The notes under the pieces were generated by a model. The model was not told the DNA's origin and searched no databases. It was given only the letters and a program-made list of their open reading frames with translations. Source: Leptolyngbya sp. KIOST-1 (GTDB lineage: Bacteria > Cyanobacteriota > Cyanobacteriia > Phormidesmidales > Phormidesmidaceae). From it: DNA of 64,000 nt. Numbering within the stretch: position 1 is the stretch's first letter; each line of letters starts with the position of its first letter. Below are positions 40,692 through 59,382 of the stretch, in pieces. The position numbers and the translations under genes are program-made. The DNA is taken from positions 3,720,001 to 3,784,000 of the forward strand of contig NZ_JQFA01000002.1 of the NCBI RefSeq assembly GCF_000763385.1, given 5' to 3'.

Positions 40692-40849
40692 TTTGGTGGT
40701 TCTGTTTTGCAAGAGGCGAAGGCAACCCACCGTTTGCCCCGATGGGATACTTGGTGGGATCACCCTGCCGGGTATGCTGTGGCGTTTGGCTACCCCTTTA
40801 CGGTTAGAATGGCGCTACCTGGAGTGTGCTGCTGTGGTGCTCGGCCCGT

Positions 40850-41521
40850 ATGAGAACTCTAAGCCTATTCGAGAATGACCGCCTCTCCCTCGATCGCAGC
40901 ATTGAGCTATCGGCGGAGTCGCTGCGCCACTATGGGTCTTTGTACCGGCATTGGGCGATCGCCTTCTCCGGTGGTAAAGATTCTTCAGCCACCGTTACAT
41001 TAGTTGCCGATCTGCTCGACAGGGGCTTGGTGCCTCGGCCTGAGAGTGTCACGGTGCTCTACGCCGATACCCGCCAGGAGCTGCCGCCGCTGCACAATGC
41101 GGCCCTGGCGCTGCTAGCCAAGCTGCGCGAAAAGGGCTTCGATACCCGCGTTGTGCTGCCCAAGCTCGACCATCGCTACTTTGTCTACATGCTGGGGCGG
41201 GGGGTGCCGCCGCCCTCCAATACCTTCCGCTGGTGTACGCCCAAGCTCAAGGTGATGGCCATGGAGCGGGAGCTAGAAACCCTGCGCCAAGAGCGGGGCG
41301 AGAAGTTTCTCATGCTCACAGGGGTGCGCATTGGCGAATCGGCGGCGCGGGACCAGCGGATTGCCCTGAGCTGTAGCCGCGATGGCGGCGAGTGCGGCCA
41401 GGGCTGGTTTCAGCAGACTACCTCTAGCGCGGTGGCCGATACCCTAGCGCCGCTGCTGCACTGGCGGGTCTGCCATGTGTGGGATTGGCTGGTGCAGGCG
41501 GATGTGGAGCTTGGGACTTAG
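40850..41521 (+). CDS. dndC: DndC-like phosphorothioation sulfurtransferase, 3'-truncated
   Basis: PAPS-reductase-like PP-loop enzyme of DNA phosphorothioation, 223 aa from MRTLSLFEND. The ATP-pyrophosphatase loop is FSGGKDSSATV. RWCTPKLK and the GVRIGESAARDQR segment are typical. Full DndC proteins go on past the HVWDWL point to a Cys cluster for a 4Fe-4S centre. Here the frame leaves the family and stops ten codons later, at the point where it meets the 3' end of an oppositely oriented dndD fragment. Hence probably inactive. No dndB or dndE is nearby. Confidence 0.8.
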   Translation: MRTLSLFENDRLSLDRSIELSAESLRHYGSLYRHWAIAFSGGKDSSATVTLVADLLDRGLVPRPESVTVLYADTRQELPPLHNAALALLAKLREKGFDTRVVLPKLDHRYFVYMLGRGVPPPSNTFRWCTPKLKVMAMERELETLRQERGEKFLMLTGVRIGESAARDQRIALSCSRDGGECGQGWFQQTTSSAVADTLAPLLHWRVCHVWDWLVQADVELGT

Positions 41522-42544
41522 ATCAGCCGTCGCCAGAACGTCTAATAACTTTTGATCGCGTTCAGCAATTAGGTCTTGGGACATTTCAATTTGCTGGCGG
41601 CGCAGTTCTTTTTGGCCCTGAGCCTGAACTTTTTTCAGCAGGGGCTGAATCAGCAGTAGGGGTAGTTCGGCGGCGGCGCAGGCGCGGAGTTGGTCACGAA
41701 TGTCGTTAGCAGATTGTTGCAGGGCGGCAAGTTTGGCCTCTAGCTGGGGGCGATCGCTGGCAATGTCTCCCCCTCGGGCTTTAAAGTTGGCTTCAGCAGT
41801 TTGAAGGACTGCGGTAGCCTGCTCAACCTGGGTTTTGAGGTGTTCAAGCTGAGTTGCGGCTGACTCCCGGGCGGTTTTTTGCTCGGCTAGGCGGTGCTCA
41901 ATGCGTTCTAGGTCGTGAAGTTCTTGGGTATTGGCGAGGGCTTTTTGTTTGCGCTGGGTGAGTAAGTCCAGATCCAGGGCCAGCCGATCGGCCAGTTCTA
42001 GGCCCAGCATGGCGCGAATCGCCTCCACCACTGGGGTCGGGGGAATGGCTTGCTCAGCCAGTTCTTTGATTTGTTCGCCATCAAATAGGAAAAGGCTGGA
42101 AATGCCCAGGGGCAAGACGGTCTCAATCCATTCATCCCAGGTTTGCACCAGCACATCGTCGGCCCAGTCATCGACGGTGACATCCAGGGTGTCTTTGCCG
42201 CCCTTGGGCTGGCGGCTCCAGGTGCGCTGCACCCGAATGGTTTTGGGGACGCCATTGAGAATGTACTCAAAGGCCAGTTCAACGCCAGCAATTGCATCAT
42301 CAGGGGCCGCATAGTGAACGCACTGGCTAAGGAAATCGCTGTAGCTAAGGCCGCGTCGGGTGGAGCACTGGGATCGCGCCCCGTACAGCGCCAGCCGCAG
42401 CGCATCGAGCAGGGTGGTCTTGCCGCCCCCATTCATGCCGCCAATAAGGATGATGGGGCAACCCTCTGTACCGGGACTCAGATCTAGCACCTGCCGTCCT
42501 CGATAGGGGCCAAAGTTTTGTAGAACCAGCTCCAGCAGAATCAT
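41444..42544 (-). CDS. dndD: DndD-like ATPase, 3'-truncated
   Basis: SMC-like ATPase of the Dnd system, 366 aa instead of ~650. Walker A GGMNGGGKTTLLD is at the N-terminus, the family block FLFDGEQIKELAEQ follows, and then a coiled coil begins (about 190-330). The second coil and the C-terminal signature/Walker B half are missing. The last ~20 residues appear to be antisense dndC sequence (41444-41495). The start ATG overlaps the HEPN gene stop (ATGA), so it is coupled to the MNT-HEPN pair. Not expected to form a working ATPase head. Confidence 0.8.
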   Translation of the reverse strand: MILLELVLQNFGPYRGRQVLDLSPGTEGCPIILIGGMNGGGKTTLLDALRLALYGARSQCSTRRGLSYSDFLSQCVHYAAPDDAIAGVELAFEYILNGVPKTIRVQRTWSRQPKGGKDTLDVTVDDWADDVLVQTWDEWIETVLPLGISSLFLFDGEQIKELAEQAIPPTPVVEAIRAMLGLELADRLALDLDLLTQRKQKALANTQELHDLERIEHRLAEQKTARESAATQLEHLKTQVEQATAVLQTAEANFKARGGDIASDRPQLEAKLAALQQSANDIRDQLRACAAAELPLLLIQPLLKKVQAQGQKELRRQQIEMSQDLIAERDQKLLDVLATADLSPKLHIRLHQPIPHMADPPVQQRR

Positions 42545-42942
42545 GAGCCTTGCAGATACTCTCTTACTTGACTCAGGAAATCTTCAGCATAGGAAAGACA
42601 TTCTCTAGCATCATCTATAGATGAATCAACCAGATCGGCGTAATCAGCTTCTAACCGCTGTTCAAAGGCAAAATGCAGACCCGCTGACATCTGCTTGCTG
42701 AAGACACCAGTTTTTACAAACTCGCGATCAAAGAGAGCAATTGCTCCTTTGTGCTTTGATGTACCCAGTTGGCGAGTTACTAGCAGTGCTAAAACAGCAT
42801 AAAACATGGAATAGTAAAAGCGATTTATGGAATCAGCATAAAAGTTTTGCTCAAACAGCAGCTCACCTGCTTCTAAAGCTTTTTGTGCTTGCTGTAGTCG
42901 TGCCTGTACTAAAGCAGAAATATCTTCTTCTGAATAATTCAA
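42541..42942 (-). CDS. HEPN-domain toxin-like protein
   Basis: 133 aa. Pattern NRFYYSMFYAVLALLV and TSKHKGAIALFDREF is typical of HEPN proteins paired with minimal nucleotidyltransferases. The MNT stop and HEPN start overlap by four bases, and the HEPN stop overlaps the dndD start. By analogy it is the RNase-like toxin that the MNT protein would neutralise. Confidence 0.8.
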   Translation of the reverse strand: MNYSEEDISALVQARLQQAQKALEAGELLFEQNFYADSINRFYYSMFYAVLALLVTRQLGTSKHKGAIALFDREFVKTGVFSKQMSAGLHFAFEQRLEADYADLVDSSIDDARECLSYAEDFLSQVREYLQGS

Positions 42943-43271
42943 GCTGCAATACCTTCTTTGAGGATATTACTAACTAGAGGGCTCGCTGAATAAAGCCTAC
43001 TATTAAACTGCTGGCGTGAGTATTTCACAGTAGTAATAATGACATCGTGGCAAAAGCCTACGTCCCAGGCAATATAGCTAATTTCTTTCCAGACTTTTCG
43101 GTCTAGCTCCTCAACTACAACACAGATATCCAAATCTGACTCGGGTTGCCCGTCTCCTCTCGCCCGTGAGCCAAAGGCCCAAATACTCGCTTGGGGAAAT
43201 TGCTCTCGAATTTTATCAGCAAACTCTATCAAGATGCTTTGATCGTGGTTTGACATCATGGCCGGTTGCAA
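42939..43271 (-). CDS. Minimal nucleotidyltransferase (MNT) domain antitoxin
   Basis: 110 aa, or about 105 from the second Met. The polymerase-beta fold motif is FGSRARGDGQPESDLDICVV (GS...DxD). A nucleotidyltransferase of a HEPN/MNT toxin-antitoxin pair, which in characterised pairs AMPylates the HEPN toxin. Operon with 42541-42942. Confidence 0.85.
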   Translation of the reverse strand: MQPAMMSNHDQSILIEFADKIREQFPQASIWAFGSRARGDGQPESDLDICVVVEELDRKVWKEISYIAWDVGFCHDVIITTVKYSRQQFNSRLYSASPLVSNILKEGIAA

Positions 43272-43303
43272 AGTTCCAGGATCAACGGCACCTTCATTTT
43301 ATC

Positions 43304-43561
43304 CTAGCCGTAGTCGGCCTCGGGCTCGGCGGCTCTGGGACTGGCTGCAAACCGGATGGCTCCCCAGTCGGTGAGGGCTTTGACCTGCTCGACATCGCCC
43401 TCGGCGGCGGCGGTTTTGAGGTCGTGGCGGTGGTAGGCCTGGGCGATCGCCTCGTCGCGCGATCGCGAGCTGCTGTCAAAGCATTTTTCGATGGCTTCAA
43501 AGATGCCGACCCGGCGGCCCATGGTGGCGTACTGCCGCTCGGTGTCGAGCAGTTTGGCCAC
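43304..43561 (-). CDS. Hypothetical protein, 85 aa
   Basis: Starts at GTG (MAKLLDTERQYATMGRRVG), 12 bases after the upstream gene, so probably cotranscribed. Soluble, helical, with HRHDLKTAAAEGDVEQVK. A shorter start at the Met of MGRRVG is possible. No family recognised. A plus-strand frame covering the same DNA looks like a shadow. Confidence 0.45.
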   Translation of the reverse strand: MAKLLDTERQYATMGRRVGIFEAIEKCFDSSSRSRDEAIAQAYHRHDLKTAAAEGDVEQVKALTDWGAIRFAASPRAAEPEADYG

Positions 43562-43572
43562 TGGCTCGGCCC

Positions 43573-43878
43573 CTATTCCCTGGGCAAGTACTTCACCAAC
43601 GCTTTCATGACCTCATCGGGGCCAAACTGGAGGGGGCGATCGGCGTTGGGGGCGCTGAGGAAGTCTGTCCACTCAAAGATTTCGGCAAAACCATGCTGGT
43701 GGAGGGCAACGACAATGGAACTTACAGCCCGCTTGCTGCCAATGACAAGGATTTTGACAGGTTCGCGATCGGGGTGAGGGTAGCTGTGGAGCTTGAGGGT
43801 GAGTTCGAGGTGAACTGGCCCAGAAGATTCAGGGTTGAGGATGCGGGCACTGTAGCGGGCAGTGGGGCTAGAGGACAT
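43573..43878 (-). CDS. Hypothetical protein, 101 aa
   Basis: Starts at MSSSPTARYSARI (43878), where AGGAG lies nine bases upstream. The longer reading to 43914 lacks support. Mixed alpha/beta protein with VKILVIGSKRAVSSIVVALH, perhaps a small nucleotide- or RNA-related fold. No family is recognised. Upstream partner of 43304-43561 and divergent from the XRE gene. Confidence 0.5.
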   Translation of the reverse strand: MSSSPTARYSARILNPESSGPVHLELTLKLHSYPHPDREPVKILVIGSKRAVSSIVVALHQHGFAEIFEWTDFLSAPNADRPLQFGPDEVMKALVKYLPRE

Positions 43879-43989
43879 AGCAAGCTCCTGCTTTGGCGTC
43901 AAAATGGATGCCAAGATTGTAGCGTCAGTTTTGACTACGTCAACCCTTTAGATGCTGGAGAGATTATCATCCTCTGAAAAGATAGGGGC

Positions 43990-44217
43990 ATGGGAAAAGC
44001 AGGAGCCGCCCTCAAGCAGGTGCTTGAGACTTACAACATCAGCCAGTACAGCCTTGCCGCCGTGCTGGATGTCGAGCGCAACAATGTCTACCGATGGGCA
44101 AACGAGAAACGTGACCCATCGGCAGAAACCGTTGTTGAAATTGTCAGAGCACTAAAATCTATGAACCCCGAAGCCGCTGAGTTTTTTGTCAAGTTTTATC
44201 TAGGCAACGAAATCTAA
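43990..44217 (+). CDS. XRE-type helix-turn-helix regulator
   Basis: 75 aa. SQYSLAAVLDVERNNVYRWANEKRDP gives the Cro/CI helix-turn-helix (helices 2-3 in that span, residues ~18-43). GTG/ATG choices are few, and the ATG after a GGGGC tract is used. Single-domain proteins like this are often antitoxins or prophage/defence regulators. Divergent from the hypothetical pair to its left. Confidence 0.8.
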   Translation: MGKAGAALKQVLETYNISQYSLAAVLDVERNNVYRWANEKRDPSAETVVEIVRALKSMNPEAAEFFVKFYLGNEI

Positions 44218-44309
44218 TACGCTGTATTCCCTGGAAGGCTTGGCAGCATCTGCTCTATTTTCTGGCTCACCAATTAATTCAAGGGTAGTCCGGCCTTATG
44301 CTTGAAAAT

Positions 44310-45761
44310 CTATGCTGAAATTATTTTTTTCAAAACTTCTATCCTTCTTTTCATCGCCGAGTCGTTCCTCATTTTTTCCAACGGGCCACTGTACCTATTT
44401 ATCTCCTTAATAAGTTCCTGGGCAGCAGGCATCGATATCTTATGGATCATCAAATTCAAGAGTTTCCTAAACTTTTCCTGACATAGAGGAAGCTGAAGTC
44501 TGCTTGAAATCTCAAGTTCGTTGAAAGACAGAACGGCAATGAGTGCTTGCTCAGGACTAAAGTTGTCAAACAAGTCGATGTATATAGGCTCTGCATTCCA
44601 TGCAACACCGTTCCCGTTCGTGAGGAAAACCTCAACTAGACATAGAACGTATTCATTGTTGATCGCCGACGGAACTTTGCCTTCATTGCCCACTAATCGT
44701 TGTAACTGCCTTGCGAAAGGAGGCTCATTATAAAAGTTGTTAACCGCTCGGTGAGCAAGCAGGAGATTCTCTATTGCGGCTTGTATTTCAGCTGTTCTTA
44801 TATTGTCAGGGATGTAAGAAAGGCCGGATACGGTTTCTAAAAACTCTCTAGAGAGCTTTTGCTTGTCTTGATCATTATTAAAAACAAATCTAGCATATTT
44901 AACGCCAAATCTTTGACGTGTATGTTCGTCAAGACGGCTCCAGAGATCAGACACCAAAAACCGAATATTTTGTCGTGTTTGAGTAGTTGTGTCTTCCTTT
45001 GTATATATCCCAAAGAATCCTTCGGCTAGGGTTACTACTCTCTCCATTGGGAGATCCGCAAAGAATATAAGAATTTGTTTGGCCTCTGATTCTGATATTT
45101 TGTTATTTTTGATATTTGACAACAGTTTTTTGATTTCTCCAACCACTGTTGACAATGGAAGAGTTATCACTTCCAAAATGCAAGTCTCAAGCATTCCAAT
45201 CAGTTGTAAGCCTGTAATTTCGTTTTGATTGGGATGTGCGGCGCTTGCCCAATTACGCATATATCTAACATAATCAAGATGCCTAAAGCCCAAGTCAGAA
45301 ACTAGTCCTATCTCTTGAGCCCCTTTTATAAGCTCACTGTCATCTATTTTGAGTAAGTCTTCCTCTGTGTTGAGTTTTTTGCGACGATCTGAACTGCTAC
45401 CAACCGCAGCATCAAAAAAATACTCAAGATCATACTGTGCAACCCTTCTTCTCAACTCATATATGGTTTCATCCCAAAGATAATTTAATGCAGCGTCAAA
45501 TAAGCCTGCTGCAGAAGCGGCAATAAATTTGGATATATAAATGGATCTTTGGCGTTGATCAGCTTCGATCCTCTCAACAACATCTTCGACATTTCGAAAC
45601 ACTCTTAGCCGCTCGGGAACTCCAACCAAAACTTGCTCTGTTGGGAGTCCATAACGCCCTATGAATCCTAGAAGATTATTTTCAAATGCCGATATTTGAG
45701 ATGAATAGTCTGAGCTAGGAACAAGATTGCTTGAGTCATCTGCACTTTTGGAATTACTCAT
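44310..45761 (-). CDS. Large HEPN-like hypothetical protein of the defence island
   Basis: 483 aa, AT-rich against its neighbours, so probably acquired. Around residue 165 the segment VRYMRNWASAAHPNQNEI contains R-N-x5-H, the RX4-6H pattern of HEPN RNases. The flanking helices fit such a fold. The C-terminal 250 residues are helical and unrecognised. Several related proteins occur in defence islands. RNase activity is inference. Upstream lies the HNH gene on the same strand (76 bases). Confidence 0.55.
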   Translation of the reverse strand: MSNSKSADDSSNLVPSSDYSSQISAFENNLLGFIGRYGLPTEQVLVGVPERLRVFRNVEDVVERIEADQRQRSIYISKFIAASAAGLFDAALNYLWDETIYELRRRVAQYDLEYFFDAAVGSSSDRRKKLNTEEDLLKIDDSELIKGAQEIGLVSDLGFRHLDYVRYMRNWASAAHPNQNEITGLQLIGMLETCILEVITLPLSTVVGEIKKLLSNIKNNKISESEAKQILIFFADLPMERVVTLAEGFFGIYTKEDTTTQTRQNIRFLVSDLWSRLDEHTRQRFGVKYARFVFNNDQDKQKLSREFLETVSGLSYIPDNIRTAEIQAAIENLLLAHRAVNNFYNEPPFARQLQRLVGNEGKVPSAINNEYVLCLVEVFLTNGNGVAWNAEPIYIDLFDNFSPEQALIAVLSFNELEISSRLQLPLCQEKFRKLLNLMIHKISMPAAQELIKEINRYSGPLEKMRNDSAMKRRIEVLKKIISA

Positions 45762-45837
45762 GAGTTTCCCATTTAATTTATTCTTAATTACTAGGCCGAT
45801 ATTCTTTAAGTTATTTTAGTATGCAGAATTTATGTTC

Positions 45838-46791
45838 TTATCGTATCATCCATTTTTCTCTGTGCCATCTTAAGCTCTTCAGGCTAGGTGGAAACTGTCC
45901 ATTTCTTGGCAAAAATATCTCTTTCCCTCTGAATTCTTGTATTTCTTGACTCTTCTCCAAAGTCTCTTCTGTAAACCTATCCCACGGAATTAAAATTCGG
46001 TAATCATCGTCTACTCCAAACCAGCCGTGGTCAAAGGCCCAGTGGTGGTTCTTGCAGAGCGCTAGCCCATTCACAAAGCGATCATCCCGAAACTCCGCAA
46101 ACGGCTGAATGTGTGCCCCATCCACCATATTCACCCCATCCCACCCCACCACCCGCACCTTGCAAAACGCACACCGCTGGTCATACAGCTTCACCACATT
46201 CCGCCGAAACGCCGCATTGCGAACAAAAATCCTGTCCTCATCCCGCAGATCCTCCACATTGTAGGTTGCCCCGCCCGAGTCAAACAGCGATCGCTGCACC
46301 GCTTCAAACTCGTCATACTTAAACGCTTTCGCAATCTCACCCCCCCGATCCGGAAACCACGCCTGAATCAAAATCGTAGTCAGCTCCGTGCGGCTCTGGG
46401 GGTTTTGCAGCAGCGCAAACAGTTCCCCATCCAGGTAGGCATACTTCACCGCCGATCGCAGCACAGGCAGCGTGCGAAACTTCACCCTGGCTGCGATCGC
46501 CGCCTCAAAGCCAGGGTTCGGCATCAGGTGCCAAAACCTATCCCCCGTCAGGTGAAAAAACGGCAGAGCAATATTCGAGTGGTGGTCGCTATCGACAAAC
46601 TGGTGCCAAAACTTGAGAAAATTTGCCGTCAGCTCCGGCGACAGGTAGATCTCATTGCGGTTAATCAGCCCCTTCTCGCACAGATCCAGCACCGTCAGTA
46701 GCAAGATCGGCTTGTGGGGAGCTGTTCCCCGAGCCTTGTCTACTCTGAGCTTGGCAAATCTCTTGGCGTAAAATAAAAAGTCTTTCTCCAT
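45838..46791 (-). CDS. HNH endonuclease, Dnd-island type
   Basis: 317 aa. The C-terminal HNH_2-type nuclease reads CAFCKVRV, DGAHIQPF and ALCKNHHWAFDHG, giving the zinc Cys and His-Asn-His residues. The N-terminal ~190 residues begin FLFYAKRFAKLRVDK and probably recognise DNA. Such HNH proteins are known as modification-dependent restriction enzymes and are frequent beside Dnd genes. Whether this one reads phosphorothioate DNA is untested. Confidence 0.85.
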   Translation of the reverse strand: MEKDFLFYAKRFAKLRVDKARGTAPHKPILLLTVLDLCEKGLINRNEIYLSPELTANFLKFWHQFVDSDHHSNIALPFFHLTGDRFWHLMPNPGFEAAIAARVKFRTLPVLRSAVKYAYLDGELFALLQNPQSRTELTTILIQAWFPDRGGEIAKAFKYDEFEAVQRSLFDSGGATYNVEDLRDEDRIFVRNAAFRRNVVKLYDQRCAFCKVRVVGWDGVNMVDGAHIQPFAEFRDDRFVNGLALCKNHHWAFDHGWFGVDDDYRILIPWDRFTEETLEKSQEIQEFRGKEIFLPRNGQFPPSLKSLRWHREKWMIR

Positions 46792-46817
46792 AGGTTTGAG
46801 GCAAATTCCCCCTCCAC

Positions 46818-47270
46818 CTATAGAAACTTAGACAAATCAAAATCTTTGTCAGCCTGCTGGGTTTGTTTTCTCAGCTTTAGAATTAGAAGAACCTGGTCTG
46901 AGTAGTCTACGCTGCCGCTCAACTCAGAAGCCAAAATCTCTAGGCCACCATTCACATATTGCTCAAAAATTTCAACTCGTATGTAGTCATGCACCTCATC
47001 ATCATGCAGAATTTCTGGGTCTTGAGTGTGGGCCAAGGCGATCAAATTAATAATCTCAGCGTTGCGAATTTGCTCTTGAAGAACGGCATCCGGATCTTTT
47101 CTAGAATAGGTGCCCAGCGGTACTCGCCGAGAGCTATAGAAACCTAGCGCAGCAGCAAAGGTCACAATGTCTGCATAGGTACGAAAAGGCCCGATCGCAC
47201 CATCGCTGGAGCGCAAATTTCGTACCAGCTCTGCCTTGTCTTCTGCAATGTGAACCCTTGCCAGCGCCAT
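46818..47270 (-). CDS. DNA phosphorothioation-associated protein 4-like
   Basis: 150 aa. The pattern IAEDKAELVRNLR, GPFRTYADIVTFAAALGF and YVNGGLEILASELSGSVDYSDQ fits, from memory, the Dnd-associated protein 4 family. The biochemical role is unknown, and the family is found beside dnd and other restriction genes. 27 bases separate it from the downstream HNH gene. A truncated relative lies immediately upstream. Confidence 0.65.
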   Translation of the reverse strand: MALARVHIAEDKAELVRNLRSSDGAIGPFRTYADIVTFAAALGFYSSRRVPLGTYSRKDPDAVLQEQIRNAEIINLIALAHTQDPEILHDDEVHDYIRVEIFEQYVNGGLEILASELSGSVDYSDQVLLILKLRKQTQQADKDFDLSKFL

Positions 47271-47279
47271 TTGTATTGA

Positions 47280-47390
47280 TCAACTAAATTTTTCTAATTT
47301 GCGAGAGCCAGTAATCATATCACTCCCATCCCTCAACGCCCTCACCAGTTCCAACCTATCCTTCGCAATCCGAATCCTACTCTCTGCCAT
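47280..47390 (-). pseudogene. N-terminal remnant related to the Dnd-associated protein 4 gene
   Basis: 36-codon ORF reading MAESRIRIAKDRLELVRALR, clearly similar to the first 23 residues of the next gene (MALARVHIAEDKAELVRNLR). It then turns into unrelated sequence and stops. It looks like a decayed tandem duplicate or the end of a deleted paralogue. Confidence 0.6.
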
Positions 47391-47411
47391 ACTCTAGCCT
47401 ATCGAAATGGT

Positions 47412-47873
47412 TTAGTTTAGGTGAGCTTGAGCAAACTTCTCTGGGGTCAAACATTTAAATGTCTTACTGTTTTCTACCATTGAGGCAATTAGCTTATGAT
47501 TTGATGACACAAAGCACTCTGCCTTTCCTTGCTTTGCAGTTAAGTAAACCCCAATATCTTCCCGTGGTATTTGCAAAGCCTCTGCTTCAGGGATTTCTTG
47601 CGTATCCAACAAAACATAAACAAGATTGAAGTTTTGCCAAACCCTAGCCATTAGTTTGCCCGCCCAGTCTTTGCCCTTTAAACGTTTGCCCACCCTAAGA
47701 ATCTGCTCCACCAGTTCCTTAGAGATCACCACCTCAGGAGCATTTGCATTTTTCTCCTCAAACCCTAAGAACTCCAGAATCTTCCCCTCAGGGCAACTGG
47801 GGTCAGCCGCGCCAACAATATAAACGTTAGTATCCAAAAAAATGCGACCATATTTTTCTATGGAATCTGGCAT
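47412..47873 (-). CDS. PIN-domain toxin (VapC-like)
   Basis: 153 aa. PIN acidic sites: Asp in FLDTNVYI, Glu in ELVEQIL, Asp in REDIGVYLTA. The fourth position is Asn in SSNHKLI, where Asp is usual, so activity may be reduced. The upstream gene ends three bases before its start and probably encodes the antitoxin. Confidence 0.75.
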   Translation of the reverse strand: MPDSIEKYGRIFLDTNVYIVGAADPSCPEGKILEFLGFEEKNANAPEVVISKELVEQILRVGKRLKGKDWAGKLMARVWQNFNLVYVLLDTQEIPEAEALQIPREDIGVYLTAKQGKAECFVSSNHKLIASMVENSKTFKCLTPEKFAQAHLN

Positions 47874-47876
47874 AGC

Positions 47877-48224
47877 CTAATCATTAACGTGTTGTTCATG
47901 CCACATTTCTCGCTTTACTTCCTGCACAAGTTCAACAACTTGATCCTTCGAGTTATAGCCGCTTGCCGTTAAAGCCTCATTCAGCTCACGCTGAATTTGT
48001 GAAACTGGGCTAAGAAAGTATTGTGACGAGAACATTTCTCCTAGCGCCTCAGACCTTGAGGCATCTTCAAGGGAAACAATCGATTCTCGATCGCCAGATA
48101 TGACTCGAATAGTTTTTGTTTGCCTACTTTTTTGCTTCAAGTAGCGCAAAAAATCAAGCACTTCTCCCAGAATGGGATCTGGTGTTTGTTCTAGTTCTTG
48201 CAGTATTAACTCTCTGTTGGTCAT
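47877..48224 (-). CDS. Probable antitoxin of the PIN pair
   Basis: 115 aa from MTNRELILQELEQTPD (48224), with GGAGG eight bases upstream. The longer start at 48251 is rejected since it overlaps the hepT relic. The N-terminus is DUF2281-like (LGEVLDFLRYLK). The rest, SQIQRELNEALTASGY, is unrecognised. Place and spacing suggest an antitoxin of the adjacent PIN protein. Confidence 0.6.
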   Translation of the reverse strand: MTNRELILQELEQTPDPILGEVLDFLRYLKQKSRQTKTIRVISGDRESIVSLEDASRSEALGEMFSSQYFLSPVSQIQRELNEALTASGYNSKDQVVELVQEVKREMWHEQHVND

Positions 48225-48237
48225 TGCGGTACCCTCC

Positions 48238-48483
48238 GAATAAATAATCATGGATTAGAACATCTCGAAAACCGGCAATTTGCCTCTAGGGAATATCAGG
48301 ATTAGAGTTTCGCAATTCTTCTGACAGTCGTTTAACGGCCTCTCCCATAACCTCAAAGTTGCGAATAACGGCATCCTGTATCATACGATTTCTCATAAAG
48401 GCTTCCCTGTCATCGGATATATAAAGCTCAATTTGATTAATGCATTCCAAAATATTGCTTAGGTATAGCGCATCTCCCCTCAC
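48238..48483 (-). pseudogene. hepT: HepT (DUF86) toxin broken by an amber codon
   Basis: The first 65 codons follow HepT (YLSNILECINQIE, IRNFEVMGEAVKRLSEEL, NPDIP), then a TAG stands at 48286-48288 where homologues have Trp. The same frame goes on after it with RQIAGFRDVLIHDY, including the RX4HxY catalytic motif. It loses similarity after about Y-L-F (48238), beside the next gene's ribosome-binding site. So the toxin is cut off before its active site and also 3'-truncated. Readthrough or suppression cannot be excluded. Confidence 0.8.
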
Positions 48484-48773
48484 AGTGGTACCGCCTCCGC
48501 CATAACCTGATCTCTAATTCGCTCATGGAGTGTTCGAGGAGTAGCAACGTCTACAGGGTGCCCTAAAAGGTCTTCCAAATCCTGTATTAAAGCAATACGA
48601 TCAATTAAGCTATGCCCTTGCTCCATATCTACAAGCAAGTCAACATCACTGCTAGCAGAGTCACTTCCCCGTGCCACAGAGCCAAATACTCGAATATTAG
48701 ACGCACCATATTTAGTGGCGATCGCGATCACCCGATCTCGATTCGACCTTAGAGATTGCATTAAGTTGCCCAT
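48480..48773 (-). CDS. mntA: MntA-type nucleotidyltransferase antitoxin
   Basis: 97 aa. VFGSVARGSDSASSDVDLLV has the GS and DxD nucleotidyltransferase residues. The C-terminus LIDRIALIQDLEDLLGHPVDV is the usual helix and strand for this family. Its stop overlaps the hepT start. It is intact although its toxin partner is broken. Confidence 0.85.
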   Translation of the reverse strand: MGNLMQSLRSNRDRVIAIATKYGASNIRVFGSVARGSDSASSDVDLLVDMEQGHSLIDRIALIQDLEDLLGHPVDVATPRTLHERIRDQVMAEAVPL

Positions 48774-48794
48774 GACTACCTCTCAAATACTCCC

Positions 48795-50870
48795 TCAGCC
48801 CTGGCGATGCACCTCCACAATTTCGGTGAACTCAAACTCATCAGGGCTTTGCCGAATCAGCGGGTAGGTTTCGCTGCCCAGGCGCATCGTCGTAGCGCCC
48901 TGCAGATCATCCCTGGGAGAATTGTAGACCAGCACATATTCTCGTCCAATGCGGGGCAGCATTTCTTCTTCCACCTCGCCGCGCCACTGGGTCGGGCTAG
49001 CCATTACGATTAGCTGATCCGCCAGCCCTGGCAGCAGCTTAGACACCTGCCGCCGATAGATCTCATCCAGGCTACCAAAGGGCGAATCCATTACCAGCGG
49101 GAACGTGCTGCTGTCTGGCCCCATCACCAGCTTATTTTCGCTCCACTGGCGAATGCGCTCCACCACGCTGCCGATGAACGACAGGCTGAGAATCTGGTTT
49201 TCGCCAGTCGAAGCGCCTACCAGTACCTCCTGGTTGCCCACCCGCTCCACCAGGTTTAGCTCATACTTCTCGCTGATGCGGGGAATGTAGGCCTTGAACG
49301 AAATGTCGCTGTAAAGGGCGCTGAGGGTGTCTTGCAGCTCCTGGCGAAACAGAATATCTTGATTTTGCTTCAGTTCCTTGAGGCGATCGATCGCATCCTG
49401 GGCCGCTTCAATGCGCTTTACCGCCAGCTGCTGCTTGCTCTGGTTTTGCTTGCGATCGCGCATCTGTTTCCGCAGCTGGCTAGTCTCGGTAGCCAGCAGG
49501 GCAATGCGCTCTTGGTTGCGGCCCTTTTCTAAAATCAGGCGCTCACAGGTGCCATCGACCTCATCAATGCGCTCCTGGAGCTGGCGAATGTCTTCGCGGG
49601 GGCTGGTGCGCAGCTGGTCGCGCAGATCTTCCAGGTCAATTTCGATCTGCGAGAGCTTTTGCTTGCAGTGGTTGATGGTGGCCTGCTCCTGATCGACCTC
49701 GCGCCAAAAGTCCTCCTGCTGGTCTTCCTGCTGGTTCACCCACCCCTCCAGGCGATAGACCGTCGATTGCACATCCGCCAGCCCGGTCTTTTGCAGCCAG
49801 GCCTCCACCGCCTCGCGGTGGGGGGTGCCGGGGTGCAGCTCCATGCCGCAGATACAGCGCTGCATTTCCAGCAGCTCCTGCACAAATTTGGGCTTCACAT
49901 CGGCGGGGAGCTGGCCCTTCTCTTCCTTGTCTCGCACGATCGCCCGAAAGGTCTCGATCACCGAGGGCAAAAATACCGTATAACCCCGGTTCGAGATCGC
50001 CTGCTTGAGCACCTTTTTGGCGTCCTGGAGGCGATCGCGCAGTTCCCGCTCCTGCTCCGTGAGCTGATCCATCCGCCGCTGCAGCGACTCAAACTCCCCC
50101 GACTCCCGCAGGCGCAGGCTGTACTCCTGCTTCAGGGTGGCCTGGTGGGCCAGCTCCTGATCGATCTCGGTCTGGCGGGTTTCCAGGGCGTCGTGGGTGG
50201 CTTCTTTTTCCCGGCGCTGGGCCAGCAGGCTTTTGGTTTCGGCGTCGCCAATGCCCGACAGCTCATCTTCCAGGGTTTTGCGGGCGGCGTTGAGGTGCTT
50301 GATCGCATTGTCGAGCACCTTTACCCCCAGCAGCTTTTGGGTGGCCTCGGCGATCTCGGCTCGGTTGTCGGTGCGCACCAGCTGCTCAATCCGCTCCCCA
50401 TCGAAGAAAAAGTACTGGTGCAGGCTCTTGGGCAGCATCCGCCCCACCACATCGTCGGGGTTTTTCGAGGCGGGCAGGGTAGACCAGCGGCCATCGTCGC
50501 CCACAAACTGCATCGCTACCTCGCTGGCCGACTGGGTGACGTCATCCCCCCGCCGGGTGGCCTGGCACGATCGCCGCACCCGGTACTGCTTACCGTCGTG
50601 GTCAAAGGCCACCTCCACCCAGCAATCGACCCGCTCCTGCTCTGCCGCCTCCGCCAGCGCCCGCCGGTTCACCAGCTGGTCGGGCGAGGCCAGCGCGGCG
50701 GTGAAGCGTTCGTACAGCGCCCAGGTAAAGGCGTTGAGCAGGGCGGTTTTACCCGAGCCATTGTTGCCGTGGATGACGGTGATGTTGCGATCGGCGGTCT
50801 TGGCGAAGCTCAGCCCGTGCTCGCCATGAAACGGGCGAAAATTGTAGAGTTTCAGGCTCAACAGCTTCAT
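48795..50870 (-). CDS. SMC/Rad50-like ATPase related to DndD, with zinc-hook cysteines
   Basis: 691 aa. N-terminal head: MKLLSLKLYNFRPFHGEHG and Walker A GNNGSGKTALLNAF, followed by FFFDGERIEQL, the block shared by DndD and related defence ATPases. A long coiled coil (about 200-530) is interrupted near 345 by RCICG, a CxxC zinc-hook candidate. The C-terminal head has GENQILSLSFIGS (signature) and LVMDSPFGSLDE (Walker B). It probably dimerises and binds DNA ends. The start overlaps the stop of a 56-aa ORF (ATGA). Which system it belongs to is not settled. Confidence 0.85.
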   Translation of the reverse strand: MKLLSLKLYNFRPFHGEHGLSFAKTADRNITVIHGNNGSGKTALLNAFTWALYERFTAALASPDQLVNRRALAEAAEQERVDCWVEVAFDHDGKQYRVRRSCQATRRGDDVTQSASEVAMQFVGDDGRWSTLPASKNPDDVVGRMLPKSLHQYFFFDGERIEQLVRTDNRAEIAEATQKLLGVKVLDNAIKHLNAARKTLEDELSGIGDAETKSLLAQRREKEATHDALETRQTEIDQELAHQATLKQEYSLRLRESGEFESLQRRMDQLTEQERELRDRLQDAKKVLKQAISNRGYTVFLPSVIETFRAIVRDKEEKGQLPADVKPKFVQELLEMQRCICGMELHPGTPHREAVEAWLQKTGLADVQSTVYRLEGWVNQQEDQQEDFWREVDQEQATINHCKQKLSQIEIDLEDLRDQLRTSPREDIRQLQERIDEVDGTCERLILEKGRNQERIALLATETSQLRKQMRDRKQNQSKQQLAVKRIEAAQDAIDRLKELKQNQDILFRQELQDTLSALYSDISFKAYIPRISEKYELNLVERVGNQEVLVGASTGENQILSLSFIGSVVERIRQWSENKLVMGPDSSTFPLVMDSPFGSLDEIYRRQVSKLLPGLADQLIVMASPTQWRGEVEEEMLPRIGREYVLVYNSPRDDLQGATTMRLGSETYPLIRQSPDEFEFTEIVEVHRQG

Positions 50871-51037
50871 TGCACCGCTTCCTTCACAATCCGCAAAATG
50901 TCGGCATTGACCAGACCGCGATCGTTGCGATCGAGCCGGTCTTTCTCGATTTCGAGCACCTGCTGAATAATCTGCCGCACCTCGGGGGAAGCGGTGTCGA
51001 TGGGCCGATGCACGTCCTTAGCGGTCAGTTTACTCAT
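50867..51037 (-). CDS. 56-aa ORF coupled to the SMC-like ATPase
   Basis: Reads MSKLTAKDVHRPIDTASPEV, with a helical, charged middle and DILRIVKEAVQ at the end. Both ends overlap neighbours by four bases (ATGA), so the gene order DUF4058, this ORF, ATPase is translationally coupled. No family is recognised. Its size and place suggest an accessory subunit of the ATPase. Confidence 0.65.
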   Translation of the reverse strand: MSKLTAKDVHRPIDTASPEVRQIIQQVLEIEKDRLDRNDRGLVNADILRIVKEAVQ

Positions 51038-51816
51038 TGGGTTCCGTCTTCCCTGATCTGGAGCTGCTCTGTAACCCAGTCGCTATCTGCCGGGGCTAAG
51101 GGCGGCACTGGCGGCTGGCTGTAGTCAATGGCCATAGCGTATCGCCCTTTGTCGTAGACGTACTGTAGCAGGGGCTGTAGGGCCAGCATGGGTTCTGGTT
51201 CCTGGACGATTAGCGGTATCGGTATCGGGGGAATCGGCTGCTGGAGGTTGAATCGGTATAGGTCGGCCAGGGGACGGCGATCGCCCCGCGATACCAAAAT
51301 TCGGTAGTGGCTGGACTGCTCGCCCGACATCGGCAGGGGTTGCCCGCCCCGCAGGAGGTCAATTTCCACCAGGTGTGAGGCACTGGCTAAAGCCTGGTTG
51401 CGTTTCCGCAGGTAGGCTATCCTCCCCTCCCCAGGGCGCTTATTTTTAGGCGACAGTAGCTCAAGCACGGTAACCACGGTTCCCGTCGCCGCCTCGCGAA
51501 TTTCGAGGTAGCGCTCCGTCACTTCCTCCGCCATCGGCACTTTGACCTGTTCAGGCTGCACGGTCGGCGCTGGGGTGGCGGTGGCCGTAGGGGCCTGAGT
51601 CCGTTGATGGGTCACCACGGCGACGTCTGGAATGCCGACTAAAACCGAGTCCTCATCGCTGAAAAAGTAGGTGCGCTTTTCAATCTCAACCCGGTACTTC
51701 TCACTGAGATGCTCCACCAGGTCGTCGGCGATCGCCACAATCAACCGGCTGTGGATAGATGACCACAGCTCAGGATTTTCAAGGTAGGGGTTCATGCCTG
51801 GAAAGGGCGATCGCAT
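51034..51816 (-). CDS. DUF4058 protein
   Basis: 260 aa. The family start MRSPFPGMNPYLENPELW and ERYLEIREAATGTVVTVLELLSPKNK are clear, as are DLLRGG and HYRILVSR. DUF4058 is a cyanobacterial/planctomycete family of unknown function, with a core that recalls restriction-endonuclease-like folds (from memory, unverified). Overlaps the 56-aa ORF start by four bases. The overlap could mean a functional link or be chance. Confidence 0.85.
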   Translation of the reverse strand: MRSPFPGMNPYLENPELWSSIHSRLIVAIADDLVEHLSEKYRVEIEKRTYFFSDEDSVLVGIPDVAVVTHQRTQAPTATATPAPTVQPEQVKVPMAEEVTERYLEIREAATGTVVTVLELLSPKNKRPGEGRIAYLRKRNQALASASHLVEIDLLRGGQPLPMSGEQSSHYRILVSRGDRRPLADLYRFNLQQPIPPIPIPLIVQEPEPMLALQPLLQYVYDKGRYAMAIDYSQPPVPPLAPADSDWVTEQLQIREDGTQ

Positions 51817-51877
51817 AGGTCATCCTGGCCGCTCAGACGATGCTTCTAAAGCCAAATATGGGTATCAAGCAGCAGGT

Positions 51878-52123
51878 TTACTGTAAAACTTCCCACTCGC
51901 TTTCAGCCAGGGCTGGAGACACAATATCTCCCTGAATTTGCCCTGTCTCTTTCATGCAACCAAACGTTCGGCGTTGAGCTGTGGGCTCGTTCGCTTGAGC
52001 AGGCTGCACCTGAGTTAGTTCATCCTTTAAAGATTGCAACAACAACTCAATCAAGTTGATGCGTTCCTGAATGGAAGCCTGTTGCATCGTTTGTAAAATC
52101 TCAGATTGAATCATTGTGCTCAC
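51878..52123 (-). CDS. Small antitoxin-like protein
   Basis: 81 aa. ILQTMQQASIQERINLIELLLQSLKDEL is the helical N-terminal pattern of small addiction-module antitoxins. The C-terminus is polar. An alternative start is the second Met (MIQSE). No toxin is evident beside it. Confidence 0.5.
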   Translation of the reverse strand: MSTMIQSEILQTMQQASIQERINLIELLLQSLKDELTQVQPAQANEPTAQRRTFGCMKETGQIQGDIVSPALAESEWEVLQ

Positions 52124-52186
52124 TCCATCGTTAACAACGCCCCAGCCGCCTTACCCCATTGTAGGGTTCCCCTTCACAGCCCGGCT

Positions 52187-54346
52187 TCACATATCCAAGA
52201 GGCCGTAGCGCTTTTGCAGGTCGAGGAGCTGCACTCTGGCCTCCCCCGCATTGTCGGCTAGGTGCGCGAACTCCACAAAGCGCCGTAGCTCCTTTTTTAG
52301 CAGCCCCCGCTCCACCGCCAGCGACTCGCCCTCCAGGGCCGGGGGCACGACGATCATGTCAAAAAGGGTCGCCCGATCTTTGCCGGGGGCACGCCGCAGC
52401 ACCCGGCCCCGCCGCTGCACAAACTGGCGCGGGTTGCCGCTGCTGGCCATGATCACCGCCGTCTGAGTAGCGGGGATATCAACCCCTTCATCCAGGCAGC
52501 GGATGGCGACTAGCCCCTGGAGTTCTCCGGTTTCAAACTGCCGCCGCAGGTCTTCCCGTTCCTCCAGGGATGTATCGGCAGTGTAGGTGTTGACCCGGTA
52601 GCCCAGCTCTTTGCCCAGCAGCACCGTGACCGCTTCAACGTAGCGGTAGTTCTCCTGAGATACCTCGTCCTCCACGCTGCCGTCGCCGCAGTAAAACAGC
52701 GTGTGGGAGGTGTCGAGACGATCGCCCATCAGCGATCGCAGCGCCTGCAATTTATTGGCCGCATTACCCACCAGCCGCGATCGCTGGTTGAGCAGTCCCT
52801 TGAGTTTCTCCTCCAGCTCACTGTCGCCCATGGAGGCTAGCTGGCCAATTTTCTGGGTGAGCGCAGCGTAGCGCTGGGCCTCCTCCTCCGTCAGCTCGAC
52901 CAACACAGGGTAGTAGCGGTAGTGGACAAGGGCACCCTGGGCGATCGCATCGGCCAGGGTAAACTCCGGCTCCAATACCGGCCCAAAGTAGTTGAAAATG
53001 CCCTCGGTGCCCGCTTCGTCAAAGTAGCGCTCCGGCGTTGCTGACAGCGCCAGCCGCAGCCCCACCGTACGGGGCAAGCTCTGCTCTAGCCGTTTAGCCC
53101 CCAGGTTGTGGGCTTCGTCCCCAACAATTAACGTCTTTTCGGGAAAATAGGGCAACTGCGACTGCAACCCATCACCCATCAGCGTGGCATTGGTCGTGAG
53201 CACAGTTACAAAGGGCTGATAGCCCGATCGCACGCTGTAGAGCTGGCTCGACAGTCGATCTTGCCACTGCCTGACGTTCTCGTAGGCCAAAATGGGCTCT
53301 AGGCCAAACTTGCGGCACTCCCTCGTCCACTGGGTGACTAAATGGCGGTACGGACACACCACAATCAGTGCCTGCAGCTGAATTTTGTCGTAGAGTGCCG
53401 CTGCGATCGCCAGCGCCGTAATCGTCTTACCGCTGCCCGTCGCCATTTTCAGCGTGCCGCGCCCTTTATTGGCAAACCAGTTGGCGATCGCTTGCTGCTG
53501 GTAGGGGCGCAGAGTGATGCTCGGCGGTAGGTTGGGAACATCCCCTCTAGACATCTCTGTCGGTAAAGAATCATCTATTTTGTAATCACCTTGCCCACTG
53601 GCAACTCTGGGCTCTTGAGTGGGCGGTTGAGTTGGACAGAGCTTGAGCAGCGATCGCGCCACCGCCTGTGGAAACGCCATCACCTCCACATGCTTCGTCT
53701 GGTCATTCCACAAATCCTGAAAGTTTCTCGCTTTCTGCAACGCTCGCTGCCTCACCCCCGCATCCCAGGAGCAAAACACATCCAAACACTCAAAGTTGTC
53801 AATCAGCGCACTGGCACTCTCATTGGCCGACCCTGTAAAAGCCACCACATGGCCCTCACCATCGACAAAAAGGCCCAGCTTTTCGTGGTAAATCCCCCGC
53901 CGCCGCAGGGTTTTGGGGATCGCCAGCTTAATTTCTAAGAGTCCCCTACTGAGCAGCCACACCAACGCCGCCAGCCGGTCTTGCACCACCTGGGGCAGCT
54001 CCACCTCCAGCTCCCGCAGCAGCGCCGCCTCAACCACCTGCTCTCGGTTCTTCAGCCCCTGCTCGATGGCCCGCACATCTTCCTCCGACAGCTGCGGCGA
54101 CGTGATCAGGCGCATCTGCCCGCCCGATCGCACAAACGCCGACAGCCCCTGGGCCACGCAGGCCATTGACGAGCTAGAGAAATAGCCCACCGCCCGGTTG
54201 TACACCGTCGCCTGCTCCAGACACGGGATGTAGAAATCCTGGACGATATCGCGATCGCTGCTCCGGTACTCGTCCTGAATCGTCAGATCCTTCAGACTCA
54301 CGTAGGCTCCTTCAGGCAGGCACTGTCTGAAGTCTAGCCAAGCCAA
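52187..54346 (-). CDS. PLD-nuclease / SF2 helicase defence protein
   Basis: 719 aa. The N-terminal ~230 residues form a phospholipase-D-like domain with HEKLGLFVDG and FTGSANES, the HxK...D and S motifs. Then follows an SF2 helicase: Walker A ATGSGKTIT, DEAH, SATP, and C-terminal GEARVQ after QRRGRVLRR. The layout fits the helicase family that is often called a phosphorothioation-system restriction enzyme in dnd clusters. This is from memory. It would translocate on and cut non-self DNA. Confidence 0.85.
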   Translation of the reverse strand: MAWLDFRQCLPEGAYVSLKDLTIQDEYRSSDRDIVQDFYIPCLEQATVYNRAVGYFSSSSMACVAQGLSAFVRSGGQMRLITSPQLSEEDVRAIEQGLKNREQVVEAALLRELEVELPQVVQDRLAALVWLLSRGLLEIKLAIPKTLRRRGIYHEKLGLFVDGEGHVVAFTGSANESASALIDNFECLDVFCSWDAGVRQRALQKARNFQDLWNDQTKHVEVMAFPQAVARSLLKLCPTQPPTQEPRVASGQGDYKIDDSLPTEMSRGDVPNLPPSITLRPYQQQAIANWFANKGRGTLKMATGSGKTITALAIAAALYDKIQLQALIVVCPYRHLVTQWTRECRKFGLEPILAYENVRQWQDRLSSQLYSVRSGYQPFVTVLTTNATLMGDGLQSQLPYFPEKTLIVGDEAHNLGAKRLEQSLPRTVGLRLALSATPERYFDEAGTEGIFNYFGPVLEPEFTLADAIAQGALVHYRYYPVLVELTEEEAQRYAALTQKIGQLASMGDSELEEKLKGLLNQRSRLVGNAANKLQALRSLMGDRLDTSHTLFYCGDGSVEDEVSQENYRYVEAVTVLLGKELGYRVNTYTADTSLEEREDLRRQFETGELQGLVAIRCLDEGVDIPATQTAVIMASSGNPRQFVQRRGRVLRRAPGKDRATLFDMIVVPPALEGESLAVERGLLKKELRRFVEFAHLADNAGEARVQLLDLQKRYGLLDM

Positions 54347-54473
54347 ATTCCCTGGTTAGGCGATCGCCGCCACTTGCGGAAATTTCTTTACACGGTGTTT
54401 TGTCCCACCAGCGCCGCCGCCCACTAGTTCCACCTCGGCTCACCCAGCTCCACTGTCCCAAAGCACCGCAAAC

Positions 54474-54494
54474 TTTACCCCAAATTTACCCCAA
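54474..54494 (+). repeat. Paired decamer, left arm of the tRNA-Cys attP-like site
   Basis: TTTACCCCAA twice at 54474-54483 and 54485-54494, 11 bp apart. The same pair stands right of the tRNA-Cys core (54692-54712). Confidence 0.6.
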
Positions 54495-54600
54495 TCCGCC
54501 AGGCCAGCCCTTGGCCAACGATCCCAAAGCCAAGCGCAATCAAAGCCACCCATACCAGCCTCGAAGGCGTTCAAAGGCTAGATCTAGTCGGATTTTCCCA

Positions 54601-54647
54601 AGGCGACACCCGGATTCGAACCGGGGGTGGAGGTTTTGCAGACCTCT
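54601..54647 (-). other. tRNA-Cys 3' half, attP/att core
   Basis: On the minus strand: GAGGT-CTGCAAA-ACCTC anticodon arm (GCA), variable region, T-arm and TGTCGCC acceptor strand with T discriminator. The 5' half (acceptor, D-arm) is absent and replaced by unrelated bases, so it is not a functional tRNA. Decamer pairs flank it on both sides. Confidence 0.7.
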
Positions 54648-54679
54648 ATAAACCACGGATTCGCAGTACTTTCAGCCGA

Positions 54680-55104
54680 GTGCCCCTACACTTTACCCCA
54701 ATTTTACCCCAATGGCAGACTGGCCCCTACAGCCCCATGATAGTCTCCCTGTTGAGGCCCCTGTGGCCTCAGCAGGGGTATCTGGAATACGTTTGCTTGG
54801 TGACGATGGAAGCTCAGAGCTATCCCGATCTCTACCGGGATTATGTGAGCAGCGATCTGGCTGCATTCAGCTCGACCAGAAGGTGACGGCGGCAGCGCTG
54901 GGGGCAGGGGAACAGGGAGAGGCCGTAGCGGCACTGCTGCACCAGGGGCCGTATGCCCGGTTCCAACAAGATTTGCAGGGGGTGACCCTACCCACGATTG
55001 AGCAGTACGCCCGAGGGACGGTGGCTCAAGTGCAGGCGATTCAGGCGCTCCAGGTGGGGCAACCCTCCCAACGTATTAGCCGGGTTAGAGGTGTAGAGCG
55101 ATAA
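54680..55104 (+). pseudogene. Mobilisation-type gene relic, frameshifted
   Basis: Two overlapping frames give LEYVCLVTMEAQSYPDLYRDYV (54680-54886, read in part) and, in another frame, LDQKVTAAALGAGEQGEAV with the TVAQVQAI helix (54712-55104). Together they resemble a segment that I associate, from memory, with relaxases of cyanobacterial plasmids. Frame change near 54880. Low-confidence assignment. Confidence 0.35.
54692..54712 (+). repeat. Paired decamer, right arm of the tRNA-Cys attP-like site
   Basis: TTTACCCCAA at 54692-54701 and 54703-54712, same orientation and spacing as the left pair. Confidence 0.6.
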
Positions 55105-56224: not shown

Positions 56225-56540
56225 TGAAGTGAACCCTTAGATTCGGACAGTAGATCAAGGGAATTAAGAGATCTACTCTTTTATATCATGCTTTTTCTTT
56301 TGTTGTTCATTCCATTTTTGTTCGTATTCTTCAGGTGTTAGATAACTTAGAGAGGAATGGATTCTTTTCTTCATATACACATCCTCCAAGAAGTGTTCGA
56401 TCTGTTGATACGCCTCTGTAAAGTTTCGATATTCCGATAGATCAACTTCCTCCTCTTTTATGGTTCTCATTAATCGTTCGGCATAGCCGTTCTGCCAAGC
56501 TTGTCCGACTTCTGCCATGCTAATTTGGACTCCCTTCTCT
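56225..56540 (-). mobile_element. IS3 partial copy (left 316 bp)
   Basis: Identical to 56598-56913 as far as I can read, including the terminal repeat TGAAGTGAACCC and the last third of orfB. Divergence starts sharply after CCCTTCTCT. Confidence 0.85.
56273..56518 (-). pseudogene. 3' end of IS3 orfB (partial copy)
   Basis: 81 codons identical to the end of orfB, including the third catalytic Glu region (NGYAERLMRTIKEEE). The frame continues upstream into 57 bases of foreign DNA. Confidence 0.85.
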
Positions 56541-56597
56541 TGAGCCTTCGGCTCAATCTGGTAGCCCTGCTGCCTCAGCGCGACGGCCAGTTCATTC
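56541..56597 (-). other. 57-bp foreign spacer between the IS copies
   Basis: On the minus strand it reads NELAVALRQQGYQIEPKA, which resembles a relaxase-type segment (inference from memory). It is in frame with the partial orfB by chance. Confidence 0.35.
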
Positions 56598-56645
56598 TGA
56601 AGTGAACCCTTAGATTCGGACAGTAGATCAAGGGAATTAAGAGAT

Positions 56646-57793: not shown

Positions 57794-57858
57794 AGTTGCC
57801 CCCTCCTGTGGAACAAGGATACTGCTCTTAGCCTTGTGTCCGAAAATCGGGGGTCACT

Positions 57859-58365
57859 TCACAGGCAGCGCTTAGCCGCATCCGGGGTCAGCTTCGCCAG
57901 CAGATGGTCTCGAATCAGAATAGCCTCGTCTAGAGACCGACTGGGGAACCGGCTGATGTGATTTTTCTGCTTGGTGAAGTCCTTGGCGTAGGTGCTGGGG
58001 CTGATCTGAGGTTTCTTGAACTGGGCGTACTTCTCCCAAATCTCATCCAGCCCTATCTCAGGGGCTGCGGGCGGATTGGGGGAAATGGGGGAAACCGTGG
58101 TTAGCGATCCAACGGTCTGGTACTTCTGTAGGCTCAGATCCACCTCTCTATAGTCGATATCTCGCTGAATCGCCCTGACGGTGTCGCCTACCCGCTGGCG
58201 GTTTAAGGGGGTGTCGTCAAAGCCCGTGGAAATGTAAAACCGCTTGCGCTGCACCTCCCCATCCACCTCAAAGGGGTAGGAAAAGACGATTTGCAGCCGT
58301 CCTTTAGTGTTTTTGAACTGAACTGAGCCTTTTTTGCCTTTGCTTCTTGGGGTGACCGAGTACAT
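57859..58365 (-). pseudogene. Tyrosine integrase, 3'-truncated by the IS
   Basis: 168 codons. N-terminal arm-binding part (KGRLQIVFSYPFEVDGEVQRKR is the beta-sheet stretch, read in part) and the start of the SAM-like core-binding domain (LDEIWEKYAQFKKPQISPSTY). The stop (TGA) is made by the IS terminal repeat at 57859-57861. The catalytic domain is gone. The gene lies next to tRNA-Phe, the usual target position. Confidence 0.85.
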
Positions 58366-59334: not shown

Positions 59335-59382
59335 TAGGTCCCCTCTAAAACCCGCTCTGAATAATGTTTTCAGAACAGGTGA

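Follow-up and report, generated by a model that had tools for sequence, protein, structure and literature searches.

The 239 bp from 54474 to 54712 of the window, the 64,000-nucleotide stretch analysed here (G000:C2:3720001-3784000), have the sequence make-up of an integrase attachment site: a tRNA-Cys core with arms on both sides, an attP-like arrangement. The site is probably an accretion junction (a 'chimerical attI') between two islands stacked at tRNA-Cys. The genome, G000, amounts to 6.32 Mb in 13 contigs, and the site lies inside contig C2, which is 3.84 Mb long. Its parts are the following.

54474..54494, + strand: left (P) arm, exact paired decamer TTTACCCCAA with a period of 11 bp
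54495..54601: spacer from left arm to core, 107 bp
54602..54647, - strand: core, the tRNA-Cys 3' half from the anticodon arm to the 3' end; the 5' half is absent
54648..54691: conserved P' spacer, common to the tRNA-Cys far ends of G024, G017 and G001, weaker in G009, G023 and G046
54692..54712, + strand: right (P') arm, a decamer pair; its position relative to the core start, +90/+101, recurs in Rivularia locus L069, G024 and G017

Both decamer pairs are exact, lie on the + strand and have the arrangement TTTACCCCAA-N-TTTACCCCAA. A preliminary description of this DNA had reported the identical pairs at these positions, with their 11-bp period, and had read them as the arms of an attP-like layout; the pairs are exact and unique in the genome, and the layout holds, as the tRNA-Cys core is flanked on both sides and such pairs stand beside integrases at tRNA genes elsewhere. 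The same description placed a tRNA-Cys 3' half at 54601-54647. The half is present, with its anticodon GCA, but starts 1 bp later, at 54602. Is this a complete tRNA-Cys that was misread? Neither ARAGORN nor Rfam calls a tRNA at 54602-54647, which rules this out and indicates that the 5' half is truly missing. The sole intact tRNA-Cys found in the host is at C4:19116-19187. An intact gene with the same 46-bp core had been proposed as a check; there is an intact gene, but it matches the window half at 86% only. A further tRNA-Cys half, at C4:8138-8184, matches it at 85%. Several genus members have tRNA-Cys 3' halves that equal the 46 bp of the window core, and the 3' half of the intact host gene equals that of the C4 element, not the window core. 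From these sequences, it is likely that the C4 element replaced the 3' half of the host tRNA-Cys after the window half had been laid down.

How would such a layout arise? Insertion of a second island beside an older one at a tRNA 3' end gives P(older)-core-P'(newer), which is the layout observed. In this scheme, an older island with Dnd/Pbe cargo, D, would first have occupied the host tRNA-Cys, its tRNA-proximal P arm lying next to the 3' end of the gene. Recombination of a newer island, A, whose integrase is of the TTTACCCCAA class, with that same 3' end would then have placed A between the tRNA and D. A 3'-half copy would remain, bordered on the left by the P arm of D and on the right by the far-end P' arm of A. 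The N-terminal arm-binding domain of the integrase would bind the decamer pairs, and strand exchange, judging from what is known of the family, would take place in the tRNA core. Later, D would have lost its integrase, that of A would have decayed to a fragment, and element B, represented by tandem copies on C4, would have inserted between A and the tRNA. This order of insertion events is the one that we infer.

With a spacer of 0-2 bp, the exact TTTACCCCAA pair occurs at two places in the genome, both at the site, and the backward control pattern at none; when up to three mismatches are allowed, there are nine places, again with none for the control. Four copies of the exact single decamer were found in 380,158 bases of the genome, all within the site. 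These counts rule out that the decamers are common genome-wide repeats, an outcome that would have spoken against the preliminary description. Chance repeats beside a tRNA pseudogene are likewise so improbable that they can practically be set aside: for 6.32 Mb, a first-order Markov model of the C2 end and the C4 start predicts about 1e-5 exact pairs, versus the two observed at the site, the +90 spacing of the P' arm is common to other species, and no evidence that would support chance repeats was found.

A scan of GTDB species genomes for the exact pair yielded 80 stretches with 83 pairs. ARAGORN places a tRNA gene within 400 bp in 41 of the 83, and all 41 genes have their 3' end turned towards the pair. 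In 45 of the 83, tblastn finds a match to at least one of the five integrases used as references, within 600 bp and on the expected side. The tRNA types at pairs with an integrase match include Cys, Phe, Gly, Met, Thr and Arg, in other cyanobacteria. By title, 22 of the 80 loci are non-cyanobacterial; many of these pairs may be chance occurrences, as a nearby tRNA is found in only 5 of the 22 and an integrase match in 1. In 9 of 36 sites laid out, the pair and the start of an integrase open reading frame are 4 to 79 bp apart, and in two more the distances are 134 and 160 bp. The reference integrase of locus L033 carries PF00589 (Phage_integrase) and PF12167 (Arm-DNA-bind_2); a 378-aa integrase from Rivularia (L069) is not recognised as an integrase by Pfam but matches the PHROG integrase family phrog_1, and a 357-aa integrase on C4, with Pfam recognition below cut-off only, also matches phrog_1. 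Since the pairs in other cyanobacteria adjoin tyrosine integrases and stand at the 3' ends of tRNA genes, the TTTACCCCAA pair is very probably an arm-type binding site of the integrase. The paired arms presumably resemble the paired arm sites of P2-like systems. The window site has several of the features expected of an attP: a core that is the end of the target gene, direct arm repeats on both sides, and arms of a known integrase class.

Integrases with TTTACCCCAA repeats beside them, for which the preliminary description proposed a search, are found in other genomes, and the window genome has one of the same class with a variant pair. At G000:C2:1724832-1726043 (L172), an open 404-aa integrase of the same family stands at tRNA-Gly(CCC) with the arm pair TCTACCCCAAACTTACCCCAA, which has two mismatches. 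A viral contig (L111, 4889-4942) has overlapping decamer pairs in a row beside a 413-aa open reading frame; by our own reading, the neighbouring frames look unrelated. Neither a phage nor a plasmid was found to carry the window site, and both sources were discarded: there is no match among 50,697 phage records, and the one match among 72,556 plasmid records, in a Klebsiella plasmid, covers just 44 query bases, all of them in the tRNA core.

A cognate integrase was not found beside the site: the 1500 bp to the left of the core give no match. Across C2:3660001-3842158, the five reference integrases match only a relic at tRNA-Phe and a 39-aa relic at C2:3839 kb. Could the site then belong to a live non-autonomous element, i.e. 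an integrase-less Dnd/Pbe island that keeps its arms and is moved by an integrase in trans? The exact arms and core would fit, and the genome encodes both the 404-aa integrase at tRNA-Gly and the open 357-aa tRNA-Cys integrase on C4. Moreover, the G009 island stretch (L132, L133) and a stretch of Nodosilinea LEGE 07088 have no match to the five reference integrases; the latter (L088/L149) has the exact P pair at an intact tRNA-Cys, lacks such a match over 16.6 kb and is possibly an integrase-less island. Yet the Dnd cluster of the window is itself broken, with truncated DndC-like and DndD genes, and exact arms may merely reflect a young junction, and a live element of this kind appears unlikely. 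A broader form of the idea is likewise speculative and improbable: TTTACCCCAA pairs might be an arm code common to one cyanobacterial integrase family with at least six tRNA targets, such that integrase-less defence islands that keep the code, e.g. Dnd/Pbe, could be moved by any resident integrase of the family regardless of its tRNA target, the exact arms being under selection and not a scar. In open-licence papers, the decamer motif was not found described as a family-wide arm code, and among the matches listed in a literature search with the decamer strings, none was by title about cyanobacterial islands.

The accretion junction implies two different flanks. The left one looks like the end of a Dnd/Pbe island, as in G009, and the right one like the far end of a second island.

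40791..54397: Dnd/Pbe defence cargo of the left island, in decay, with patchy homology to the tRNA-Cys island of G009
52187..54346, - strand: DNA phosphorothioation system restriction enzyme (PbeA-like helicase; PbeA), the last left-island gene before the site; TIGR04095, 642.8 bits versus a cut-off of 600
54770..55064, + strand: relic of a 223-aa open reading frame, with homologues beside tRNA-island ends in relatives

The G009 counterpart of window 40791-54397, a Dnd/Pbe cluster, belongs to a tRNA-Cys island; the end with the helicase adjoins the intact tRNA-Cys. There is no decamer pair in that helicase-tRNA interval. Decay in the window is evident: the DndC-like gene has 231 aa versus 491 in G009, DndD has 366 versus 616, and of the 441-aa DndC equivalog of G009 (TIGR03183, over cut-off) only an 86-aa match is left, at 43310-43567. 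At 40826-42544, the DndC-like gene and dndD are fused tail to tail, with a difference of about 3 kb from G009, where both are longer. A second tRNA-Cys half that would bound the Dnd/Pbe island on its left was not found in C2; one half-site was detected in this contig, not the two retained att ends of a CIME. An NmrA-like gene at 35891-36667 (the name is our own reading) was tried as the left boundary of the array and rejected; it adjoins tRNA-Cys or lies near it in G003 and G012, but in 10 of the 12 relatives searched it is megabases away or on a different contig.

On the right, core plus P' occurs at the far ends of other tRNA-Cys islands. Homologues of the 223-aa frame adjoin island ends in G017, G023 and G001 and in the tRNA-Phe island on C4, on varying sides of the half: in G017 and G023 they are on the opposite side. 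The full-length frame in G017 has no NCBIfam match. Where is the integrase of this second island? What is left of it is probably a 39-residue relic at C2:3839 kb, a C-terminal fragment of the int410 type (C2:3838946-3839062; 61.5%, E 5.6e-9). The adjacent DNA, C2:3837931-3839011, matches DNA that directly precedes integrase and tRNA-Cys in G005, and a shorter part of it flanks the same integrase at tRNA-Cys in G017. The P' end in the window and the relic, 64 kb from the site, would then belong to one island, A.

A comparison of 14 tRNA-Cys half-sites with 13 intact tRNA-Cys genes shows how the arms are distributed. The exact P' pair at +90/+101 is present in 4 of the 14 (the window, Rivularia L069, G017 and G024), G001 and G046 have the pair with mismatches, G009 and G023 have a single decamer, and six half-sites have other far ends. 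In G001, the core is reduced to the anticodon end. An exact left pair of the same class is found in the window, L069 and G013; G024 has one decamer and an integrase relic, G009 and G012 have an arm relic without decamers, and seven of the 14 are without a recognisable left arm. At the half-site C4:8140, the arms belong to a different, tandem element. None of the 13 intact genes has a right arm, and 7 of them have a left arm of the TTTACCCCAA class or its relic.

Relatives were blasted against the C2 end and the C4 start. In G013, counterparts of window 45948-54401 and of C2:3791-3834 kb stand on one contig and are followed by an exact arm pair with an integrase of the int410 type, a tRNA-Cys half and the intact tRNA-Cys, the order being that of G000. 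The junction itself is absent there: 490 bp after 54401 comes C2:3791453. The 17 kb that carry the junction were either lost in G013 or gained in the window genome. The DNA beyond the far (left) end of the G013 stack matches C4:23.8-40 kb and runs opposite to the C4-like DNA that adjoins the tRNA-Cys of G013, which indicates that the chromosome was rearranged there. The start of C4 (L007, 1-19161) consists of tandem copies of an 11-kb element with the open 357-aa integrase, followed by tRNA-Cys; one copy has an array of perfect 985-bp repeats at the contig start, and a 640-aa protein has weak tail/tape-measure PHROG matches. By sequence comparison, C2 would run into C4, and the array would end at the intact tRNA-Cys of the same orientation, an arrangement supported by synteny with G013, G005 and G017. 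If C2 joins C4, the distance from the site to the intact tRNA-Cys is at least 86.7 kb (67,556 + 19,117 bp and a gap), and the site would be the inner junction of an island stack. A search of 12 relatives with C2:3804001-3824000 gave mostly repeats and little beyond G013. Type I restriction-modification genes are at 60713-63900 of the window and at 470-3295 of L009, hsdR/hsdS by PADLOC and hsdM-like by our own reading.

A comparison with relatives had also been suggested in the preliminary description; synteny with G009 and G013 would place the site inside one large island stack. Stacking fits this collinearity, the integrase relic at C2:3839 kb and the examples of similar structures in Rivularia and on C4. 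In Rivularia sp. MS3 (JAHCMI010000007, L069), an exact pair, a tRNA-Cys half and an exact pair also follow each other, with P' at +90/+101. The difference is that the 378-aa integrase is open, 6 bp from the left pair, and that the left pair is at -209 versus -128 in the window. An intact tRNA-Cys lies 66 kb to the right of that junction in the same orientation, with a 92% identical integrase, and both integrases are open. The tandem junction at C4:8140 similarly has half a tRNA-Cys core between the left arm region and the far-end region of tRNA-Cys elements, but both sides are copies of one element of about 11 kb, with an open 357-aa integrase and no TTTACCCCAA arms.

The structure is of a known kind, but the probable binding sites to either side of its core are unusually complete. 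For Streptococcus agalactiae, a review reports a chimerical attI where a decayed ICE meets an IME in a stack at tRNA-Lys (PMC5704250). The likeness to that ICE/IME/CIME composite is in the succession of decayed element, junction att and second element at the 3' end of one tRNA; the window site differs in being cyanobacterial, at tRNA-Cys, with TTTACCCCAA pairs on both sides and neither integrase intact. Fragments of tRNA genes that arise from element integration are described in a paper that regards them as annotation errors (PMC9897764). The window half resembles them as a partial tRNA duplicated by an integrating element; it differs in its arm sites, of which the excerpted part of that account makes no mention.

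In cyanobacteria, tRNA-targeting islands with tyrosine recombinases are known as tycheposons, and the window site is like them by description. An attP-like site in a chromosome can be read as a seam between stacked islands. The motif TTTACCCCAA, twice with an 11-bp period, marks island ends at several cyanobacterial tRNA genes even after integrase loss, and would help in automatic boundary finding of decayed defence islands.

The accretion junction is rated as probable and no higher because G013 is without the junction, an outer left half-site is missing, G009 is without the left pair, the left-arm spacer is without a relative (among 178 loci, its best non-self match is no better than E 0.12) and C2 and C4, whose join follows from synteny, are separate contigs. 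The rearranged chromosome of G013, the seven half-sites that have no recognisable left arm and rearrangements of IS type close to the site also speak against it. Might the site instead be the attP of one circular element, entered by homologous or IS-mediated recombination or at another tRNA? P and P' are both exact and of one decamer class, the segment from 54401 to about 71453 is the one missing from G013, and a transposase-like frame (L009 6660-7325, our own reading) lies at its right edge. A re-opened circle of island D, however, predicts G009-like far-end genes after P'; of the six far-end proteins, those of 205, 478, 117, 502 and 697 aa lack a match in the window, and the 174-aa one matches at 40114-40206, which is to the left of the cluster, just as it is in G009. 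This indicates a linear, not a permuted, gene order, and circular permutation of a single G009-like Dnd island is unsupported. Instead, the tRNA-Cys locus has an integrase relic nearby. A circular element is improbable.

The preliminary description had suggested such a circle, with entry, for example, at the tRNA-Phe 4 kb away. This suggestion falls away, as tRNA-Phe has ATTCCCCCAA arms and an integrase relic of its own, and its segment is a separate, near-identical duplicate of a C4 locus. Stacking of two islands at tRNA-Cys explains the attP-like site directly, and no other entry route is needed.

57859..58365, - strand: N-terminal relic of a tyrosine integrase beside tRNA-Phe, 53% identity to int410 over 176 aa; weak Arm-DNA-bind_2 (19.0 bits versus a cut-off of 22)

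This relic is not part of the tRNA-Cys site. Beside it, at 58430-58480, are about four repeats of the ATTCCCCCAA type, a variant of the arm code; in some of them the first letters differ. The segment 57511-59030 (about 1.5 kb, with a PPC-domain end, tRNA-Phe, arm repeats and the integrase N-terminus) is a 99.9% identical copy of C4:1107025-1108544. Joined to it in permuted order is 59031-59340, 100% identical to C4:1115328-1115637. Recent duplication, insertion of a circle or an assembly chimera may account for the whole of 57511-59340, in which a Cas6-like N-terminus and a PPC domain have become fused (names by our own reading).

Could an assembly chimera also have joined two att ends at the tRNA-Cys site? 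The 13 contigs, an estimated contamination of 4.17% and the 99.9% identical 1.5-kb duplicate 3 kb away could be taken as pointers to it. P, core and P' nevertheless span just 239 bp inside a long contig, and comparable junctions exist in Rivularia, G024 and G013 (in G013, the left arm only is of this class), which makes a chimera very unlikely. IS3-type transposase genes (our own reading) are at 56225-56914, beside the broken tRNA-Phe integrase, with a perfect 317-bp duplication (56225-56541 = 56598-56914) and a matching stretch on C7.
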